Assembly: GCA_016788945.1 (NCBI GenBank)
Contig: JAEUSA010000342.1
Coordinates: forward strand, 1 to 18,663
Source: Leptospiraceae bacterium
GTDB taxonomy: Bacteria; Spirochaetota; Leptospiria; Turneriellales; Turneriellaceae
Direction of reading: 5' to 3'
Length of the DNA stretch: 18,663 nucleotides
The position numbers were made by a program, and so were the translations under genes. Below, in pieces: positions 1,424 to 9,157 of the stretch; position 1 is the stretch's first letter; each line of letters opens with the position of its first letter. The notes beneath the pieces were generated by a model. That model ran no database searches and was not told the DNA's origin. It saw only the letters and a list, made by a program, of their open reading frames with translations.

Positions 1424-1785
1424 TTAGGGGCCGCTGACACATCGGGCCAAATAGTGGTACGTCGTGCCATTATTCGCATTGCCCTTGGTGTCCATGCCGG
1501 CAATCTGCGGGATACTGAAATTCAGCAGGTTCGAATAATTCGCGTTGTTCGGCGCCGTTGTCGAGCTCCAGTAATGGTACTGCGTAGCCCCATCTGCCGG
1601 CGTGCCTGGAAAATATCCCAAATCAATATACGGAATCGAAGTTCGCGTTAAGTCGACCAGCGCCACGAGCTCGGCGACACTGGGGAGGCGCCGCCATTGA
1701 GCGCAGCGCAGTCGCTCGCGCCCGTCGCGTGGATCATCGTGGCGGATGTTCCCGTGCACGAAGGGCCAATGCTACTTAATGACAT
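1424..1785 (-). pseudogene. DUF1566 (Lcl C-terminal-like) domain remnant with a frame disruption
   Basis: The downstream frame (1424-1696) encodes a recognisable DUF1566 domain end: WRRLPSVAELVALVD, then PYIDLGYFPGT, YHYWSSTTAP and a terminal YLARCVSGP, matching the family pattern WRLP-x-x-x-EL ... FP-x-T ... YWSST ... RCV. The part expected before WRLP is in another frame: from an ATG at 1785-1783 it reads PSCTGTSATM followed by SDCAALNGGA, and then the frame is lost at about 1688-1700. The two halves fit as one domain (CAALNGGA + WRLP) if 4 or 7 nt have been lost. No signal peptide is present and the ATG overlaps the end of the preceding gene, so the 5' part of the gene is missing as well. 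DUF1566 proteins are often secreted or surface proteins in spirochaetes; molecular function is unknown. A sequencing error is the alternative. Confidence 0.65.
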
Positions 1786-3250
1786 ATTCGAGGCCGATCG
1801 CCGCCCTGAAATATGTCAGATTCTGTTCGGCGTACAGGTATGAGCCCGCGACAAAGCTGACCAGCAAATGCCACGGTGATTTAGGTGCCAGCCTGAAATA
1901 GTTGTTCACACCTATTTCAGGGGAAAATCCTGCTATAGAAAGATAACCCGAATCAATCTGGCGAAAATATCTCTGGTAATGCGTGGCGAAACCAACAAAC
2001 GGCGCCAACGAATAGGTGCGGCCCAGTTTAAACAGGCGATCTATACGCATGCCACCGCCGAGAGATAACAGATGGATTTTCGCCTTGGTCGGGTTTTCGG
2101 CAAGATATTGCGCCATATCGCCTTGGCCATAACCCGATTGCAGAACCAGCGACCAGCGGAGCTGACCCGGCAGAAATTGCCAGCGGCCGGGTGTTATGCC
2201 CGCTTCAAAAAACGCAAACCCCTTCATTGCATCAAGTTGCAGCTTTGAGCCGGGCTCGATCGCCTCGGGGTTTTTCATTCCCAAGGCAGAAAAACTCTGC
2301 ATATGGGGATACCCGGTAGCCAACCACCAGCGGGCTATGATCGGACCACGCGGGTCAGGCAGGTTGATTTTCACGCGATAGACGATCTCTTTGTCGCGGG
2401 CTGTCTTCGTCAGGGTAAGTACGGGATTCGCACCCGTGAACTGACATTTCGCAGCATTGCAGCGTATATCCCGACTGTCCGAAAATCCAGGTTCGAATTG
2501 CCTGCCCCAATACATGTACTTGAGCTCGATCTCTTTGAAGCGTTCTACATCTTCATAGGTGAAATCGACAGAATAATCAAAAGTATCGATATCGAAAGCG
2601 GGTTTGATTTTGAAACCGGTTATCTGCAGATCATCAAGAAATCCTCTGGGCGGATTTTCCAGTCGCCTGATGAGGATTTCAAGTTTGTTGTCACGCTTGA
2701 AACTATCGGCGTCGAGCGGTTTGAGTTTTTGCTTCAGCGCGTCAGAAATTTCTGAAGCAAGGCGCTCAACCTTGTCAAATACACCGGCGTCGACACGGGC
2801 TTCTTGCCTGAGTGTCACAACTGACCGTTCTTCGAGTGCGTCGACGCCTTCTGCTTCAAAGTTGACGATCAGCTGACGGCCATCCTTTTGCGCGGTGAAG
2901 CGACCGACAACCGCGACCTCACAGTTGAGGCGTTTGGCGAAAGCAGATGCGTTTGCCGCATTGAGGTTTTGAAACTGCATCGCCGGATCGATTTTGCGAA
3001 GCAGGGCAACATCGAGGATTTCAAACCGGTCAGACTTCAAAAGGTCGGTCTTCAGGTTATCTGCAATCGAATCGGACATCCACGCGACGTCTTTGTTCTT
3101 CTGCAGGTTGTCGAATGGCAGCACGAGCACGCGGCGTTTGAGTTCAGTGGCGGAGAGTGCGGATGCGGCAATAAGCAAAGCAGAGAGAGCGACCAATGTC
3201 TTTGCAGCCGCGCGAAAATTCTTGAGGATGATTGCGACTATGGATCTCAT
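1772..3250 (-). CDS. Exported TolB/FlgO-like domain protein with C-terminal beta-barrel-like region
   Basis: The product has 492 residues. Residues 1-34 form a signal peptide (basic start, hydrophobic core, cleavage after ALSA). Residues about 38-180 resemble the TolB-N/CsgG/FlgO type of periplasmic alpha-beta domain: RRVLVLPFDNL, then WMSDSIADNLKTDLLKSDRFEILD and CEVAVVGRFTAQKDGRQL. A beta-rich middle (about 200-320) contains two cysteines (DIRCNAAKCQF) that could pair. From about 335 to the end, alternating aromatic/glycine strands (GFAFFEAGITPG, LRWSLVLQSGYG, LLSLGGGMRID, YSLAPFVGFATHYQRYF) suggest a small outer-membrane barrel. The start ATG overlaps the stop of the FG-GAP gene (ATGA at 3250-3247), so the two are translationally coupled. 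A weak GAGG lies about 13 nt upstream of the ATG. The specific function is not recognised; a role in envelope or surface assembly is inference. Confidence 0.85.
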   Translation of the reverse strand: MRSIVAIILKNFRAAAKTLVALSALLIAASALSATELKRRVLVLPFDNLQKNKDVAWMSDSIADNLKTDLLKSDRFEILDVALLRKIDPAMQFQNLNAANASAFAKRLNCEVAVVGRFTAQKDGRQLIVNFEAEGVDALEERSVVTLRQEARVDAGVFDKVERLASEISDALKQKLKPLDADSFKRDNKLEILIRRLENPPRGFLDDLQITGFKIKPAFDIDTFDYSVDFTYEDVERFKEIELKYMYWGRQFEPGFSDSRDIRCNAAKCQFTGANPVLTLTKTARDKEIVYRVKINLPDPRGPIIARWWLATGYPHMQSFSALGMKNPEAIEPGSKLQLDAMKGFAFFEAGITPGRWQFLPGQLRWSLVLQSGYGQGDMAQYLAENPTKAKIHLLSLGGGMRIDRLFKLGRTYSLAPFVGFATHYQRYFRQIDSGYLSIAGFSPEIGVNNYFRLAPKSPWHLLVSFVAGSYLYAEQNLTYFRAAIGLEYVIK

Positions 3251-5094
3251 AAATTTCGGTGCACCTCGTTTAAAGAGTTTGGTCGCGGCATGCGGTGGTT
3301 CTCACCTCGCGATTTAAGACCGAAAATGCTGGCGAGTGTTGCGCCAAATTGACCGGCACCCGCTTCGCCCGAAATCAAACCTTTGGCTAAACCAGCCCCC
3401 TGAGTAACTATGCCAGCTGCTTTGCCGTCAAAAAAATATGCACGTCCTTGCGATGCGCTGAATATTGCACTGGTAGCAATAATGTCAGTTAGACCATCGC
3501 CATTAAGGTCGGCGAGCGTCACCGAAGTCCCAAATTGCTCGCTCGCGACTGCTCCCGTGAGTATGGAATTGGCCGTCCCAGCTGCTTGACTGGCGATGCC
3601 TGCTGCGCCCCCATTAAATATGTAGGTTCTTCCCTGAGTCGCGTTATATCCAGGAGATCCAACAACAAGATCCGCGTAACCATCTCCGTTAGTATCTGCT
3701 GCCACGATTGAGTTGCCAAACAATGGTGTACCAGCTTCACTGCTTAATATGGTGGAAGCTGTTGATGCGCCTTGAGAAGTGAGGGGAGTGCTGCTGCCGT
3801 GGAAAACGTACGTGCGCCCTTGATTCGCATTATAAACGTAGGCGCTAACGACCACATCCAAAAAACCGTCACCGTTAACATCGCCCACAGCACTGGAAAA
3901 ACCAAAGCGACCCGTGCCTGCCTCGCCTGTGAGTGTTGCCGTTGCCGTCGTTGCATCTTGGGTGGCGATCCCAGAGCTGCTGCCATAGAAGATGTACGCG
4001 CGGCCCTGCAATGAATTGTAACCATAGGCCCCGACAATGAGATCTGCGTATGAATCGGCGTTGATATCAGCGAGGGTAGCCGTCGCCCCGAAGGCATTCG
4101 TGCTACCGGCTTCGCCGGTCAAGATGGTCGTAGCGGATCCTGCCCCTTGAGTCGCGATACCTGCAGTACCCCCGTGAAAAATAAACAATCGCCCTGGATT
4201 GCTGCCATATCCATAGGCGCCAATGCCAATATCTTGGCAGCCGTCGCCGTTAACATCCCCCCCCGTCATTGCGTAGCCAAAATAATCGCTACCCGCCACA
4301 CCCGTCAGTATTGCATTTGCAGCCGCAGCACCTTGCGAGGTGAGTAAGACATTCCCGCCGTAAAAGATGTAGGTCCTCCCTTGGTTGGAATTGTATCCTC
4401 TGGCGCCAACAATAACATCTGAATAACCGTCACAATTGATGTCTGTTTCCGAAACGGAACTCGAGAAATAGTTGCTCGCAAGTTCGCCAGTCAAAATTGC
4501 GTGCGCAGCAGTGGCAGCTTGGGTGGGTATACCCGACACCGATCCGTAGAAAATGTACGCTTTTCCTTGGTTCGTATTCAGCGCGGGCGCGCCGATTATC
4601 GCATCAGCATAGCCATCACCATTGATATCTTTATTAGTCTGTCGAATGAAGGTGATCGCCATCGGACTACGCGAATTTCCAGAATTACCCAATGCTTTGA
4701 GGCTTACCTGATGCTTGCTCCCCACCTGCCAGCGTTGCTTGCCTGCGGCTGCCTCCGGCCCTATCGGCACGAATACCCTCCACCTGTTACCGTTGATTTC
4801 CGCCTTTTTCCATGCACCGTCGTCGAACTTTACGTCGACGCCCATTACCCCAGCGGGTAAATCCCCGGCCACGACCCCACTCCACAGCTCGCCGTTGTTG
4901 CGCACGTTCATGGTCTTGAGCAATTCGTTATTATCAGGGGTGGGATCTAGGAAACTGTCCGGGGTAACAATCTTGCAATGAGACAAAAATAGGACGAGCG
5001 CAACCAATAACATTCTTCCCGAACTGCTATAGAACAGAGAATCTCTCAGCTCCTCAGACAATTGGGCTTTGCTTTGCGCAAAATAGATCAGCAT
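3247..5094 (-). CDS. FG-GAP repeat (integrin-alpha-like beta-propeller) putative lipoprotein
   Basis: The product has 615 residues with seven FG-GAP repeats of almost constant length. Their calcium-loop motifs D-x-N-x-D-x-x-x-D start at residues 156, 218, 280, 343, 405, 467 and 529, a 62-residue period. Each repeat continues with a V/I-I-V-G-A strand, YN-x-x-QGR-x-YIF and a GI-x-TQ-A linker. Seven repeats predict one complete seven-bladed propeller, a fold used for protein or carbohydrate contacts on the outside of the cell. A hydrophobic stretch (residues 28-37) ends in LSHC at Cys40, a plausible but non-standard lipobox; spirochaete lipoboxes are relaxed. The start is uncertain. ATG 5094 has no SD and lies where a candidate promoter would start transcription. 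ATG 5013 (Met28) has GGGAAG close before it but would leave a very short, uncharged signal peptide. The downstream gene overlaps it by ATGA. Confidence 0.88.
   Translation of the reverse strand: MLIYFAQSKAQLSEELRDSLFYSSSGRMLLVALVLFLSHCKIVTPDSFLDPTPDNNELLKTMNVRNNGELWSGVVAGDLPAGVMGVDVKFDDGAWKKAEINGNRWRVFVPIGPEAAAGKQRWQVGSKHQVSLKALGNSGNSRSPMAITFIRQTNKDINGDGYADAIIGAPALNTNQGKAYIFYGSVSGIPTQAATAAHAILTGELASNYFSSSVSETDINCDGYSDVIVGARGYNSNQGRTYIFYGGNVLLTSQGAAAANAILTGVAGSDYFGYAMTGGDVNGDGCQDIGIGAYGYGSNPGRLFIFHGGTAGIATQGAGSATTILTGEAGSTNAFGATATLADINADSYADLIVGAYGYNSLQGRAYIFYGSSSGIATQDATTATATLTGEAGTGRFGFSSAVGDVNGDGFLDVVVSAYVYNANQGRTYVFHGSSTPLTSQGASTASTILSSEAGTPLFGNSIVAADTNGDGYADLVVGSPGYNATQGRTYIFNGGAAGIASQAAGTANSILTGAVASEQFGTSVTLADLNGDGLTDIIATSAIFSASQGRAYFFDGKAAGIVTQGAGLAKGLISGEAGAGQFGATLASIFGLKSRGENHRMPRPNSLNEVHRNL
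3325..4629 (-). repeat. Seven tandem 62-codon (about 186-bp) FG-GAP units
   Basis: The coding sequence is a head-to-tail array of seven units, each opening with D-x-N-x-D-G and ending with an A-x-x-I-LTG-type strand. The start-to-start spacing of the calcium loops is 62, 62, 63, 62, 62 and 62 codons. The units are clearly diverged in sequence (for example DINADSYAD in the fourth and DTNGDGYAD in the sixth), so this looks like an old, stable propeller rather than a freshly expanded array. The boundaries given run from the first calcium loop to the end of the seventh repeat and are approximate. Confidence 0.85.
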
Positions 5095-5100
5095 GCCATG

Positions 5101-5129
5101 AAGATAGCATGATCGAACGACGGTGACAA
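5101..5129 (-). promoter_or_regulatory. Candidate sigma70-like promoter of the FG-GAP/TolB-like operon
   Basis: On the minus strand TTGTCA (5129-5124, 5/6 to consensus) and TATCTT (5106-5101, 4/6) are separated by exactly 17 nt. Transcription would begin near 5094, at or next to the annotated ATG. The message would then be essentially leaderless, or translation begins at Met28 (5013). The -35 hexamer overlaps the last bases of the 25-bp repeat at 5127-5151, a typical position for an activator site. Confidence 0.4.
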
Positions 5130-5151
5130 TCCCCCATATGGCCTATGCTAC
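5127..5151 (-). repeat. 25-bp repeat, copy 2: candidate operator upstream of the FG-GAP operon
   Basis: This is identical at 22 of 25 positions to 5856-5880, including an unbroken 15-mer, CCCCATATGGCCTAT on the plus strand. The centre is the palindrome CCATATGG. This copy covers the stop codon of the response regulator (5150-5148) and reaches the -35-like TTGTCA of the next operon. The stop codon sits in a different phase relative to the repeat than in copy 1, so the conservation is not due to shared coding sequence. I infer a protein-binding site; the adjacent LuxR-type regulator is the obvious candidate ligand. Confidence 0.55.
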
Positions 5152-5804
5152 AACAATCCTAACTGGCGAGCACGATTAAGTGCTTCGACCTTCGAGGTTA
5201 CTTCAAGTTTTTCGTAGATGTGATTGATGTGCCGGCGCACCGTATGCGGGCTAATGTCGAGATCTTCGGCGATATCTTTGTAGTTAAGCCCGAGCGCTAT
5301 AAGATTGATAACTTCTTGTTCACGCTCGCTGAGGGGATTCGCACCCGAGACCGTCTCTGAACCAAAATCGGCGATCAATTTTTGCGCCACACGTTCGGTA
5401 AGCGTTGAGCCGCCGGCTTCAATGACACCCAGTTCGGCGAAAAGCAGTTCGTCCGAAATGTCTTTTAACAGGTAACCGCGAATGCCTTGGCGCATCAGGC
5501 GCACAATGCGTGCCTGATCTTCAAAAACAGTAAACACAACAATCTTGACTTCAGGATACCGCGCTCGTAATACCGTTATAAGATCTTCACCTGACTTTCC
5601 CGGCAGTTCAAGGTCGACCAAAATGATTGCGGGCTGTACCTGCGCGAGTTTCGCGAGGGCTTCATCTACAGAGCCACAGATACAAAGCAGTTTGTATTTA
5701 TCTGAGGTCGCAAAAGCACGGCGCAGACGTTCTTGAATCACAGGCTGATCTTCGAGGGCCAGTACGGGAGTCATTGCCATGTTTTGGGATTCTGCCGGAG
5801 TCAT
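5148..5804 (-). CDS. NarL/FixJ (LuxR-type) DNA-binding response regulator
   Basis: The product has 218 residues. The receiver domain (about 12-130) has the acidic pair E18/D19, the phospho-acceptor D64 (LVDLELPGKSG), T92 and K114 (YLLKD), so it looks fully functional. The LuxR-type helix-turn-helix (about 155-215) reads LSEREQEVINLIALGLNYKDIA, then DISPHTVRRHINHIYEKLEV. It is the natural partner of the histidine kinase whose stop lies 67 bp upstream. No good Shine-Dalgarno precedes ATG 5804, and Met9 and Met11 are alternative starts that leave the receiver domain intact. The 25-bp repeat (5856-5880) lies 52-76 bp upstream, and a second copy lies at its own stop codon in front of the FG-GAP operon. 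This suggests autoregulation and control of that operon (inference). Confidence 0.93.
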   Translation of the reverse strand: MTPAESQNMAMTPVLALEDQPVIQERLRRAFATSDKYKLLCICGSVDEALAKLAQVQPAIILVDLELPGKSGEDLITVLRARYPEVKIVVFTVFEDQARIVRLMRQGIRGYLLKDISDELLFAELGVIEAGGSTLTERVAQKLIADFGSETVSGANPLSEREQEVINLIALGLNYKDIAEDLDISPHTVRRHINHIYEKLEVTSKVEALNRARQLGLL

Positions 5805-5829
5805 GAGAAATTGATTTTTTTAATTGTTG

Positions 5830-5858
5830 TTCTTAAGGGAAAATAACTCGCCGGGCAA
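5830..5858 (-). promoter_or_regulatory. Weak candidate promoter for the response regulator
   Basis: TTGCCC (5858-5853) and TAAGAA (5835-5830) are separated by 17 nt on the minus strand. Both match the consensus only partly, as would suit an activator-dependent promoter. The -35-like box overlaps the 25-bp repeat copy at 5856-5880 with the same offset as at the FG-GAP operon. Transcription would start near 5823, about 19 nt before the ATG. The gene may also be reached by read-through from the kinase gene. Confidence 0.25.
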
Positions 5859-5880
5859 TACCCCATATGGCCTATTTTAC
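5856..5880 (-). repeat. 25-bp repeat, copy 1: candidate operator upstream of the response regulator
   Basis: This is the partner of the copy at 5127-5151 (22/25 identical, shared 15-mer CCCCATATGGCCTAT). On the minus strand AATAGGCCATATGGGGTATT forms an imperfect 20-bp dyad around CCATATGG. It covers the TAG stop of the kinase gene (5874-5872) and lies directly before a -35-like TTGCCC. By rough estimate, two 25-mers this similar are expected by chance about 0.01 times in a window this size. Finding both in two successive short intergenic gaps makes chance less likely still. Confidence 0.55.
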
Positions 5881-7743
5881 CAAAGGCACAACGAGCAGCA
5901 TGAGTGTGCCGGTGTGCCGTTTGCGGCACGAAATGTTTGCACCGATTTCTTTTGCCCTGAGCTCGAGCCCCTTCAGCCCGCCGCGTTCGGCTTTGCCGCT
6001 CCACTGGAATGGCGTGGAATCTTGATAAAAAAAGATGCGCACTTTATGTGGTCGCACCTGCCAACCCAAAACAAGCTGTTTAGCGTTGCGGGCATGGCGA
6101 ATGACATTGGCGCTCCATTCCGAAAGTATGCGTTCAATATGCATGCGCGCGAAGGGTGAAATTGCGGCCAGGGCGGATAGATCTTTGTGCTGCTCGCTCT
6201 CTTCGTCGGGATTGGGTTTTTGCCGTAAGTTCACGTAAGGTCGGTTTTGGTAAAACCCGACATCATAGCGCCGCAGAGCATTCAACCGCGCGCGCAGCTT
6301 GTCCAGAATAACCGGCAATGCATCTACCTCAGTCTCGTCTTTCAGTATGTGCGCGAAATCGCGTATTTTTTCGAGTGCGCCGGCTGCGAGTCGTGATAGG
6401 CCGTTACGCGATTTTTCCGATTCGAGTTCGCGGCTTAACACAACCATCTGCGATAACTCCGCACCGACTACATCGTGCAGCTCATGAGCCATGCGCAATT
6501 TGTCATTTGCGTGTTCTATTTCAGCTTCATGGCGGCCCCGGTCGCGCCATAGGTAGAGGTGAAAACTGAAATGGTCAAGAAAGTGAACAACATTGATTAT
6601 GCTCATGTAATGAAATAGCCAAGGCGTATTGAGTTGATAACCAATGACGAGTGCATCGTGGATGTAGAATGCCAAAACGCCGAGCGATTGCGGAAGATAT
6701 CGCCTATAAATAGTGCGGCGCGGACCCGAGAGAGTTTTTCGATAAAACAGAAATGGATAAAAAAGATGTGAAAGAAAAGCGATCTGATTCCAGAACATAT
6801 TGTTTGCAAATTCTGTGAAATTGGAAACCATGAGAGTGGAAACGCTGAGTATACCGCCGAGTATGAGCCAAATAATTTCATGCCGCCAGCGAAAATATCC
6901 AAGATTACGGGCAAAATACAGCGCCGAGAACATGACCGACCAGATACGCGCAATCCATTGCAGTTGGGTGTACCTCAGGTAATCGAAACCAAGCGGAATG
7001 GGCAGAAAATAAAAGCTATGGATAAAATACGAAACAAATGCCAAGACCAGAAAGGCATTGCCCTGTCCTTTTTGCCAGTAGGCAACCACCATCAAGAACG
7101 CGACGACGACGATGATCAGCAGCAACGGAATACCGACGAATATATACTCGCGCCATATACGCAGAGATAGCAGCGAGTACCTGTCTGAGTTTTCATCGGT
7201 CAGTTTAAGCGGCCCCGCATGGATACCCGCTTTATGGTCGAGTACAGTTACCTTGATTTGAATCGTGTTAATTCCTTGGCGCAATGCACCTCGAGGTAAG
7301 TCATAGGCACGTACCTTATTCCAGGCAGAAACAACACTGTTCTGCGTATGGTGGCCTTCTTTGCCGAGCAGAATGCCGTTCAGACGCGTCTCATCGGTCG
7401 AGCCTATCGAACCTAAGATCAGCAGATCGGGTACTCGTGCCGCCATTGCGGAATCATAAATAAACTGGCGACTGAATACCACCTCACCATAAAACCATGG
7501 AACGCGCGAATGCAGGTTCTCGGGTAACAACATGCGGATTGATCGCGGTGAGGTTGCCAGTTTATCATGGCACTGCTTTTCACGCGGTAGACACGATTCA
7601 AACCGTACATCCCAAGGTTCGGCGGCAAGGTCTAAAGACTGAGCGTACAGCCCGACACCTGCAAAAAAAAAGATAGCTGCGCCAACCCACGACCGGCACC
7701 TAAACAGGCGCGTTCGGTGACCGGTGCGACGGCTGTCAGGCAT
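5872..7743 (-). CDS. Sensor histidine kinase: periplasmic jelly-roll domain, 7TM-type membrane region, HisKA_3 kinase
   Basis: The product has 623 residues. A signal peptide (1-35) leads to a periplasmic beta-sandwich (about 80-182) resembling the sugar-binding jelly-roll of GH2-type enzymes and 7TMR-DISM sensors: DETRLNGILLGKEG, VRAYDLPRGALRQGINTIQIKV. About seven hydrophobic segments follow between 198 and 400. The cytoplasmic kinase has a HisKA_3 dimerisation motif MAHELHDVVGAELS with probable phospho-histidine H423, an N-box (SEWSANVIRHA, N546) and a C-terminal glycine box (GGLKGLELRAKEIGA, 588-602). The DxGxG motif is degenerate: D575 is followed by STPF. The start lies 7 bp after the MATE gene stop with only a weak AGAG as SD. 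It pairs with the response regulator downstream. The ligand is unknown; a carbohydrate or cell-wall cue would fit the fold (inference). Confidence 0.88.
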   Translation of the reverse strand: MPDSRRTGHRTRLFRCRSWVGAAIFFFAGVGLYAQSLDLAAEPWDVRFESCLPREKQCHDKLATSPRSIRMLLPENLHSRVPWFYGEVVFSRQFIYDSAMAARVPDLLILGSIGSTDETRLNGILLGKEGHHTQNSVVSAWNKVRAYDLPRGALRQGINTIQIKVTVLDHKAGIHAGPLKLTDENSDRYSLLSLRIWREYIFVGIPLLLIIVVVAFLMVVAYWQKGQGNAFLVLAFVSYFIHSFYFLPIPLGFDYLRYTQLQWIARIWSVMFSALYFARNLGYFRWRHEIIWLILGGILSVSTLMVSNFTEFANNMFWNQIAFLSHLFYPFLFYRKTLSGPRRTIYRRYLPQSLGVLAFYIHDALVIGYQLNTPWLFHYMSIINVVHFLDHFSFHLYLWRDRGRHEAEIEHANDKLRMAHELHDVVGAELSQMVVLSRELESEKSRNGLSRLAAGALEKIRDFAHILKDETEVDALPVILDKLRARLNALRRYDVGFYQNRPYVNLRQKPNPDEESEQHKDLSALAAISPFARMHIERILSEWSANVIRHARNAKQLVLGWQVRPHKVRIFFYQDSTPFQWSGKAERGGLKGLELRAKEIGANISCRKRHTGTLMLLVVPLVK

Positions 7744-7750
7744 TTTTGCT

Positions 7751-9157
7751 CTAGTTAATCACGCTCATCTGCTTCCATTTGCCGCCCATAAATCGACGCC
7801 AGAACACTGACGCCTGCACCAGACTGAAGACCGTTGCGGCGCCCCACGACCAATATACCGCTCCGGGTTCAGCGCTCAGCAAGAAGGTCGGCAAGACCAT
7901 GAGCGGCCACGGCAGAATCAGCGCGACGATGGTGACAAATTTTGTATCCCCGGCGCCTTTGAGTGCGAACGAAAAAATCAGGTTTATGCTGTCCGACGTG
8001 GTAAATATAGCCACGAAGATCAGCAGGCAAGGCGCGATCTGCGTCACCTTCGCCCACATGTCTGCATCCGCTTTATTGGCAAACCAGCTTAGGTAGAAAC
8101 CGGGAAACAGTACAAAGGTGATACCTGCCAAAAGAATGTACATGATCGTTACTTGCCAGCTCGCCCACACCGCGGCTTCGGCATAATGCGGCTTTTTTTC
8201 ACCGAGGTATTGCCCGACAAGAACCGACGCAGCCTGCGCCATGCCGATCGCCGGCAGAATCGAAAGCATCATGATCGTCACCACAATGCTCGAAGCCGAC
8301 AGAGCCGCGTTACCGTCGGCCATGCGCCCGATAAAGATAAGAAACACGCTGAACGCGAGCCCCTCAAGCGCCCATTGCATGCCGCTGGGCAAACCGAAAC
8401 GGATGAAACGCTTCATCAGTTCGCCATTCCAGCGCCAGCCGGATGTCAAATGGTAATCCCGGCGCTCGTGATCGCGAAACACGAGCCACAGGCCATAGAG
8501 CGCCGCCAGCAATGTGCCGATCGCCGTCGCATAACCCGCGCCGGCGATTCCCATTTTGGGAAAACCGCCCTTGCCCAAAATCATGAAGTAATCGAGCACC
8601 GCATTGCCGATGAGGCCAACGCCGTTGATCTGCATGATCACCTGCGTGCGGCCAAGGCCCGTGAAATAGCCGCTCGTCGCAGCGACGATCGCCGTGGGTA
8701 GCGCAGAAAAACACATCGAGACCAGATAATCGACTTCGAGCCGCTGCATCGACGCTGCATGCCCCATGCCGGCGAAAATAATGGGTGCAGCGGGTATAAG
8801 CAGCAGAAAGAGCAATCCGCCGATGATGCTCACCCAGATCGATTGCCAGACTGCAGGGCCGATCATTTCTTTTTTGCCCGCGCCGAAATACTGCGCGACA
8901 AAAGTGGTCACGTAGGCCGCAGTCTGCTGCAACAATGCCATCGGTGTCCAGAACACACCCATAACGGCAATCGCCGCGCCCATCGCTTCGGTCGAGAACT
9001 CGGCGAGAAAGAGCCGGTCGATCGTCATTTGTAGATTCCAAAAACTATTGGCGACGATCAGGGGCCAGGCAATCGAGAGCACCGTTTTCCAGCGTGCTGT
9101 TCGGCTGGCGGGAAAATCCGGTGCAGGTTCGGCGTGTGCTGAAAGAGAACCTTCCAT
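7751..9157 (-). CDS. MATE family efflux transporter
   Basis: The product has 468 residues, the usual length of the NorM/DinF-type MATE family, with about 12 hydrophobic segments. It begins TVLSIAWPLIVANSFWNLQMTIDRLFLA; the P-x-x-x-x-N and x-D-R/x-x-F pattern in the first two helices is typical. The corresponding second half starts at FIRFGLPSGMQWALEGLAF. MATE proteins export organic cations, drugs or metabolites in exchange for Na+ or H+. The start ATG is 3 bp after the stop of the SRPBCC gene, with a weak GGAAAA as ribosome-binding site, so it is clearly in one transcript with its neighbours. The histidine kinase gene starts 7 bp after its stop. The substrate cannot be told from sequence. 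Confidence 0.93.
   Translation of the reverse strand: MEGSLSAHAEPAPDFPASRTARWKTVLSIAWPLIVANSFWNLQMTIDRLFLAEFSTEAMGAAIAVMGVFWTPMALLQQTAAYVTTFVAQYFGAGKKEMIGPAVWQSIWVSIIGGLLFLLLIPAAPIIFAGMGHAASMQRLEVDYLVSMCFSALPTAIVAATSGYFTGLGRTQVIMQINGVGLIGNAVLDYFMILGKGGFPKMGIAGAGYATAIGTLLAALYGLWLVFRDHERRDYHLTSGWRWNGELMKRFIRFGLPSGMQWALEGLAFSVFLIFIGRMADGNAALSASSIVVTIMMLSILPAIGMAQAASVLVGQYLGEKKPHYAEAAVWASWQVTIMYILLAGITFVLFPGFYLSWFANKADADMWAKVTQIAPCLLIFVAIFTTSDSINLIFSFALKGAGDTKFVTIVALILPWPLMVLPTFLLSAEPGAVYWSWGAATVFSLVQASVFWRRFMGGKWKQMSVIN

Follow-up and report, generated by a model that had tools for sequence, protein, structure and literature searches.

The window, meaning the whole 18,663-nucleotide stretch analysed here, carries on its minus strand one co-directional gene series. 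From our reading of the frames, the head of the series presumably encodes an RND transporter and LolA-like, OMP-like, and SRPBCC-like proteins; these are followed by MATE (Pfam), kinase, regulator, FG-GAP, TolB-like, and Lcl_C genes, all on the minus strand. Two copies of a 25-bp repeat flank the regulator gene, and the features that bear on them are listed below in the order of transcription.

5872..7743, minus strand: membrane sensor kinase, partner of the regulator (our reading of the frame and its relatives)
5859..5874, minus strand: candidate operator copy A (7-2-7), TAGGCCA-TA-TGGGGTA, between kinase and regulator
5830..5858, minus strand: putative promoter A, TTGCCC (5858-5853), 17 nt, TAAGAA (3/6, weak); predicted start ~5823
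5148..5804, minus strand: NarL/LuxR-type response regulator, recognition helix SPHTVRRHINHIYEKL; Pfam Response_reg and GerE
5130..5145, minus strand: candidate operator copy B (7-2-7), TAGGCCA-TA-TGGGGGA, between regulator and FG-GAP operon
5101..5129, minus strand: putative promoter B, TTGTCA (5129-5124), 17 nt, TATCTT (4/6), with TG before the -10; predicted start ~5094
3247..5094, minus strand: FG-GAP repeat (beta-propeller) lipoprotein-like gene; likely true start 5013
1772..3250, minus strand: TolB-like N-terminal domain protein (TIGR02800, E = 2.7e-4, far under the curated cut-off)
1424..1759, minus strand: Lcl_C-domain protein, 12 bp past the TolB-like gene

Both a receiver domain (Response_reg, E = 1.1e-17) and a GerE helix-turn-helix (E = 1.3e-17) are present in the regulator, whose nearest solved sequence is NarL (1a04; E = 1.4e-25). 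The kinase gave no Pfam or NCBIfam match at E 0.001, and its relatives keep H..D..G and C-terminal ATPase-like columns. The FG-GAP frame probably begins 27 codons early, its true start being codon 28 (5013), where by our reading a lipoprotein-like signal starts and near which (residue 27) the homologue alignment begins. With this start, the gap between regulator and FG-GAP gene is ~134 bp rather than 53, and promoter B would sit upstream of the FG-GAP gene; the first-pass annotation, which placed each repeat copy directly before the next gene, needs amending at that junction. The start of the TolB-like gene overlaps the FG-GAP stop. A short minus-strand frame (5804-5871), with its ATG inside copy A and its TGA overlapping the regulator ATG, may be a chance occurrence.

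The repeat and its promoters

Positions 5856-5880 (copy A) and 5127-5151 (copy B), 729 bp apart, are identical at 22/25 bases and have the 15-mer CCCCATATGGCCTAT in common, exactly as first described. Confirmed as well is the overlap with gene ends, copy A covering the kinase stop (TAG, 5872-5874, minus strand) and copy B the regulator stop (TAG, 5148-5150, minus strand). A direct pair matching at 22/25 or better arose in 1/271 first-order Markov surrogates of the window, which makes the earlier chance estimate of 0.01 a fair one; since exact 15-mer pairs arise in 25% of the same surrogates, the unusual part is the 25-base match. Outside the element, local alignment picked up just one weak stretch with gaps in the coding ends, and strong similarity stays within the element.

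The source genome (3.70 Mb, 465 contigs, 94% complete) was searched for further copies. No third copy of the 15-mer was found at up to one mismatch, and TAGGCCATATGGGGNATTG at up to three mismatches matched only the same two copies (control, 1); the genome-wide scan suggested earlier thus yielded no copy of the pattern outside this locus and, at three mismatches, no larger regulon in this genome. With CCCATATGGSNTAT at one mismatch, nine matches were obtained, including the window's three readings, versus 17 in the control. Plasmid records held no match to the repeat with its surroundings. The many genomic copies expected of a dispersed repeat or mobile element were not found, with two copies in 3.70 Mb (94% complete).

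Read on the minus strand, both copies are TAGGCCATATGGGG[T/G]A followed directly by TTG. Each has 16 bp, with two heptamers around a 2-bp centre; the spacing is that of NarL 7-2-7 sites and the dyads are imperfect, the arms matching at 5/7 positions in copy A and 4/7 in copy B. Of the fixed positions in the rule TAnnnCA..TGnnnTA, copy A has 8/8 and copy B 7/8. When at least 7/8 and a following TTG were asked for, copies A and B were the only matches in the window; this rule was written after the window had been seen, and at least two matches occurred in 48/1000 surrogates. A matrix trained on relatives only placed copy A at rank 2 in the window, beaten by at least 10/40 surrogates, and copy B outside the best ten listed; the window copies differ from the relatives' sites mostly in the half beside the -35.

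The -35-like boxes pointed out earlier, with -10-like boxes at 17 nt, are both in place (TTGTCA/TATCTT and TTGCCC/TAAGAA, the latter weak), and the dyad centres lie at ~-43.5 relative to the predicted starts. Copy B matches class II geometry, and copy A has the 17-nt spacing with a 3/6 -10 (both starts being predictions). A consensus promoter scan of 4900-7900 listed promoter B, not promoter A, and returned three promoter-like sites versus a mean of 3.4 in shuffles; because shuffles give as many, the promoter match alone carries no weight.

Sites in relatives

The 12-mer GGCCATATGGGG was found in 5/61 genomes including the source genome, and each of the remaining four has it once. For the 19-mer, with as many as two mismatches allowed, 11/392 phylum genomes gave a match, again including the source genome, and the reversed control gave more (~36, our count), as expected of chance matches.

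Among the class genomes searched, the kinase has eight close full-length members: the window, G002, G009:C172, G032, G040, G043, and two in G045. Searching 48 class genomes with the eight aligned as query recovers them by construction, and the one addition was the more distant, near-full-length G009:C19. A kinase-only search of the contig database gave five stretches that fitted a pattern and no relatives. Kinase and regulator adjoin in the window, G002, G009, G032, and G045; in G040 two FG-GAP genes come between them, and the distance is ~3.3 kb.

Outside the window, the regulator is complete on its contig at four of these loci (G009:C172, G032, G040, and G045:C255). At all four, a TAGG..CCTA palindrome whose 6-nt arms match perfectly sits directly against TTG, upstream of neighbouring surface-type genes; such a palindrome occurred in 0/300 surrogates per locus, under a rule set after the sites were seen. 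The form TAGGGCA..TGCCCTA-TTG is present in G009 (TAGGGCATATGCCCTA-TTGACA, with centre CATATG as in the window), G032 (TAGGGCATACTGCCCTA-TTGACA, with the -10 TATACT at 16 nt), G045 (TAGGGCATTTTGCCCTA-TTGCCC), and the more distant G016. The form TAGGAT..ATCCTA-TTG occurs three times in G040, where TAGGATCGCATCCTA-TTGTG lies ahead of two FG-GAP genes and the regulator, divergent from one FG-GAP gene, has the same palindrome reversed (TTGACG, 17 nt, TATCAT). Arms are perfect 7-2-7 in G009, G010, and G016, and heptamer spacing is 3 in G032 and G045.

Next to these four pairs lie genes for surface-type proteins whose fold varies from locus to locus: an LVIVD propeller (G009:C172), an RCC1 propeller lipoprotein with a DUF5683 gene (G032), three FG-GAP_2 proteins (G040), and a lipoprotein-like gene without Pfam match with a DUF5683 gene (G045:C255); the lipoprotein signals among these neighbours are our reading. 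In G040 (L046:419-6095, contig C17), the three FG-GAP_2 lipoprotein-like genes are interleaved with regulator and kinase, and two of them are near-identical in the upstream region and N terminus, as after recent duplication. In G032 (L045:14600-15240), the palindrome is separated from the DUF5683 gene by a short lipoprotein-like frame, whose GGKAWYSDDRGVTW motif recalls the Asp-box repeat.

No perfect site was seen in G002:C98, G043, or the second G045 contig. In G002:C98, the same-genus orthologue, the contig ends inside the regulator, and copy A has no counterpart because kinase and regulator overlap there. No regulator was found by tblastn in G043 or the second G045 contig, and no site was found at the more distant pair of G009:C19 (helix NTVRKHI). 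Conservation in relatives, a check named in the first-pass annotation, gave a divided answer: the exact word of the element is not conserved, and the element type is. A refuting condition set by that annotation is borne out in part, since relatives lack the exact word and copy A is missing from G002:C98.

Pattern searches over the 48 class genomes extended the set of sites. TAGGGCAN{2,3}TGCCCTATTG was matched at five places in four genomes (reversed control, 1), four of which adjoin a kinase-regulator pair with the helix HT[VI]RRHI. Three of the places are loci already described. The fourth place (G016:C130), newly found by this search, is ahead of two surface-type genes and beside such a pair (helix SPHTVRRHIENIY); the fifth (G009:C139) is ahead of an 862-residue lipoprotein-like gene, with no regulator by tblastn within the 9.3 kb fetched. 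The general frame TANNNCANNTGNNNTATTG gave 105 matches versus 40 in the reversed control (our summation of the table), and 26/105 rows were followed. Twelve of the 105 are fully palindromic; six are the G009, G010, and G016 sites already counted, two (G018 and G034, identical in sequence) are near a NarL-type regulator, and four (G017, G024, G025, and G041) have no NarL-type regulator in the stretch fetched. Nor was such a regulator found at the matches, not fully palindromic, of G018:C2:1231000-1247000 and G010:C5, or at G009:C90, where the match lies among housekeeping-type genes. Loci L042, L047, L048, L049, L111-L114, L116, L118, and L120-L124 had no TAnnnCA site.

Recognition helices and spacing

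Where a site was found, the helix HT[V/I]RRHI pairs with TAGG operators, NTVR[V/A]HI mostly with TAAT operators, and GTVRNQ with TATCC operators. Helix class and operator class agree over 13 loci with both a site and a regulator; G016, G018, and G034, having been found from their sites, are no independent test of this rule. The same architecture, with TAATGCA-type operators, recurs at the paralogous NTVR[VA]HI pairs (G001, G004, G006, G010, and C133/C448 of the source genome): G004 has three such sites within 12 kb, G010 and C133 have two each, and G001 and G006 have a single site next to the pair. Genes close by on the downstream side encode TolB-like and lipoprotein-like proteins, some of which carry beta-helix or propeller domains. 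TATCCCATTTGGGATA-TTG stands ahead of lipoprotein-like genes in both G018 and G034, two genomes of different families, at ~1.3 and 6.5 kb from a regulator whose helix reads EGTVRNQ. The contigs of two NTVRVHI pairs, G002:C706 and G005:C58, yielded no site, the latter contig ending just upstream of the kinase.

Promoter spacing was compared over 19 site readings (relatives plus C133; one G009 palindrome enters twice, the second time in reverse). A -10 with at least 4/6 matches to TATAAT lies exactly 17 nt past the -35 in 13/19 readings, and every other spacer from 12 to 23 nt accounts for at most 2/19. A dyad centred near -43.5, together with a spacer that stays at 17 nt in most cases, is a placement common among class II activators.

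Interpretation

We regard the two repeats as operators of the NarL-type regulator encoded between them, with a probability of roughly 0.8. It is the repeat, its location, and the comparison taken together that carry the case for the window. Under this explanation, the adjacent membrane kinase would read a signal and the regulator would become phosphorylated; its dimer would then bind at two places: copy A, where it would set the amount of regulator made, and copy B, where it would govern how strongly the FG-GAP lipoprotein, TolB-like, and Lcl_C operon is expressed. Each dyad would be centred at ~-43.5 of a sigma-70-type promoter, with the TTG of the -35 directly after the site. This regulator very probably binds both copies; autoregulation through copy A is somewhat likely, and activation rather than repression is the mode that we lean towards. 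The hypothesis of the first-pass annotation, in which the regulator acts from class II sites on the gene that encodes it and on the FG-GAP/TolB-like operon, gains support because palindromes of the same type, the 17-nt spacing, and operator letters that track the helix recur in relatives; the exact word that it described is missing there.

The same operators could serve a repressor, bound next to or over the -35 and blocking polymerase until a signal removes it, which we consider possible and rather unlikely. The palindrome does abut the -35, and with the perfect TTGACA at the palindromes of G009, G010, G016, and G032 an activator is perhaps needless; however, the position of the dyad centre and the spacer are those usual for class II activators, and most sites of the TAATGCA group pair a poor -35 box with a good -10 box. 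That the operators belong to another transcription factor, not to the neighbouring regulator, is improbable: the window dyads do not match the relatives' sequence, most differences falling in the half beside the -35, but operator letters track the recognition helix of the neighbouring regulator over several families, and 4/5 TAGGGCA places in the 48 genomes adjoin such a regulator.

Still less probable is a functionless relic of local duplication or gene shuffling, in which the placement of the regulator between the kinase and FG-GAP genes came with the copying of a 25-bp stretch. Such an origin would accord with the finding of only two genomic copies, so close together, and with the overlap of kinase and regulator in G002; against it, strong similarity is confined to the element, the form matches the relatives' sites, and the -35 phase kept in both copies is not expected of a relic. 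An element that acts at the RNA level close to the stop codons, as a hairpin, in coupling, or as a leader, is the least credible of these alternatives. The element starts at stop codons and the short frame ends at the regulator start, but folding was not clearly better than in shuffles (z of 1.43 and -0.71 for the regions, 0.14 and 1.29 for the 25-mers alone), and no Rfam family was matched at threshold.

If the repeats are operators of the intervening regulator, an anonymous repeat can be read as a predicted operator whose protein partner is named, and targets can be predicted for such regulators in several uncultured relatives. Similar sites before surface genes in those relatives suggest that each such regulator may have its own docking word. 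A broader proposal, on which we are evenly divided, is that many NarL-type regulators of the window's class share the frame TA-NNN-CA-N2/3-TG-NNN-TA flush with the -35, that the recognition helix sets the NNN triplet, and that each kinase-regulator pair privately wires one fast-changing surface cassette, the twin copies in the window being one diverged word of that code. The triplets are GGG or GGC with RR helices, mostly ATG (with GTG, GCG, and ATA halves) with RV or RA, and TCC with RN; the GGA site of G040 departs from the shared frame at CA. The cassettes in question hold FG-GAP, LVIVD, or RCC1 propellers, beta-helix lipoproteins, or TolB-like proteins. The natural series of helix and operator variants could allow NarL-type DNA recognition to be tested letter by letter, and it suggests how little-studied spirochaete relatives wire several surface lipoprotein operons.

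Several known systems resemble this one in part. GerE (Bacillus subtilis; 1fse, among the solved-sequence matches listed) has the GerE-type DNA-binding domain in common with the window regulator, and its consensus TRGGYY fits the TAGGCC half of the window sites; GerE is not known to have a receiver domain, and its organism and regulon differ from the window's. DesR and DevR/DosR, the second and third nearest solved sequences to the window regulator, have the NarL-family architecture in common, and the DesR helix GTVRNY resembles the GTVRNQ class of the relatives; to our knowledge, their operators and regulons are unrelated to surface lipoproteins. For NarL (Escherichia coli), the nearest solved sequence, PMC4549865 gives sites as inverted heptamers 2 bp apart (7-2-7 layout) and an engineered site, TACCCCTAAAGGGGTA, that resembles the window half TACCCCA. 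The window differs from NarL in the letters of its half-sites and in having one site flush with the -35; the likely targets here are surface-type genes beside the regulator, and the heptamer spacing of 3 in G032 and G045 is a further difference. A literature search (NarL sites, Turneriella, Leptospira lipoproteins) gave no title on this operator among the matches listed.

Three further observations concern the TAATGCA group. The source genome holds a second, paralogous kinase-regulator/surface-gene locus, apparently split over two contigs (L214, G000:C133, and L119, G000:C448), with two TAATnCA operators ahead of TolB-like and beta-helix genes; the end of C133 holds the first part of a kinase that is probably continued on C448. 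In G004, an isolated TAGTACATATGCACTA-TTGACT-17-TAGAAT (L218:4882, G004:C1:2176881) lies ahead of a DUF1554 gene, far from the kinase-regulator locus and with no regulator in the 10 kb fetched. In G001:C344 (L117:4903-5088), a frame of ~71 residues with a GerE-type helix-turn-helix only (SPHTVRRHM) lies between a TAATGCA operator and a TolB-like gene, and the helix rule is blurred there because an RRH-type short frame adjoins a TAATGCA site. Similar short frames were matched in G001:C196 and G002:C366, and it is possible that such GerE-only frames are stand-alone competitors of the full regulators.
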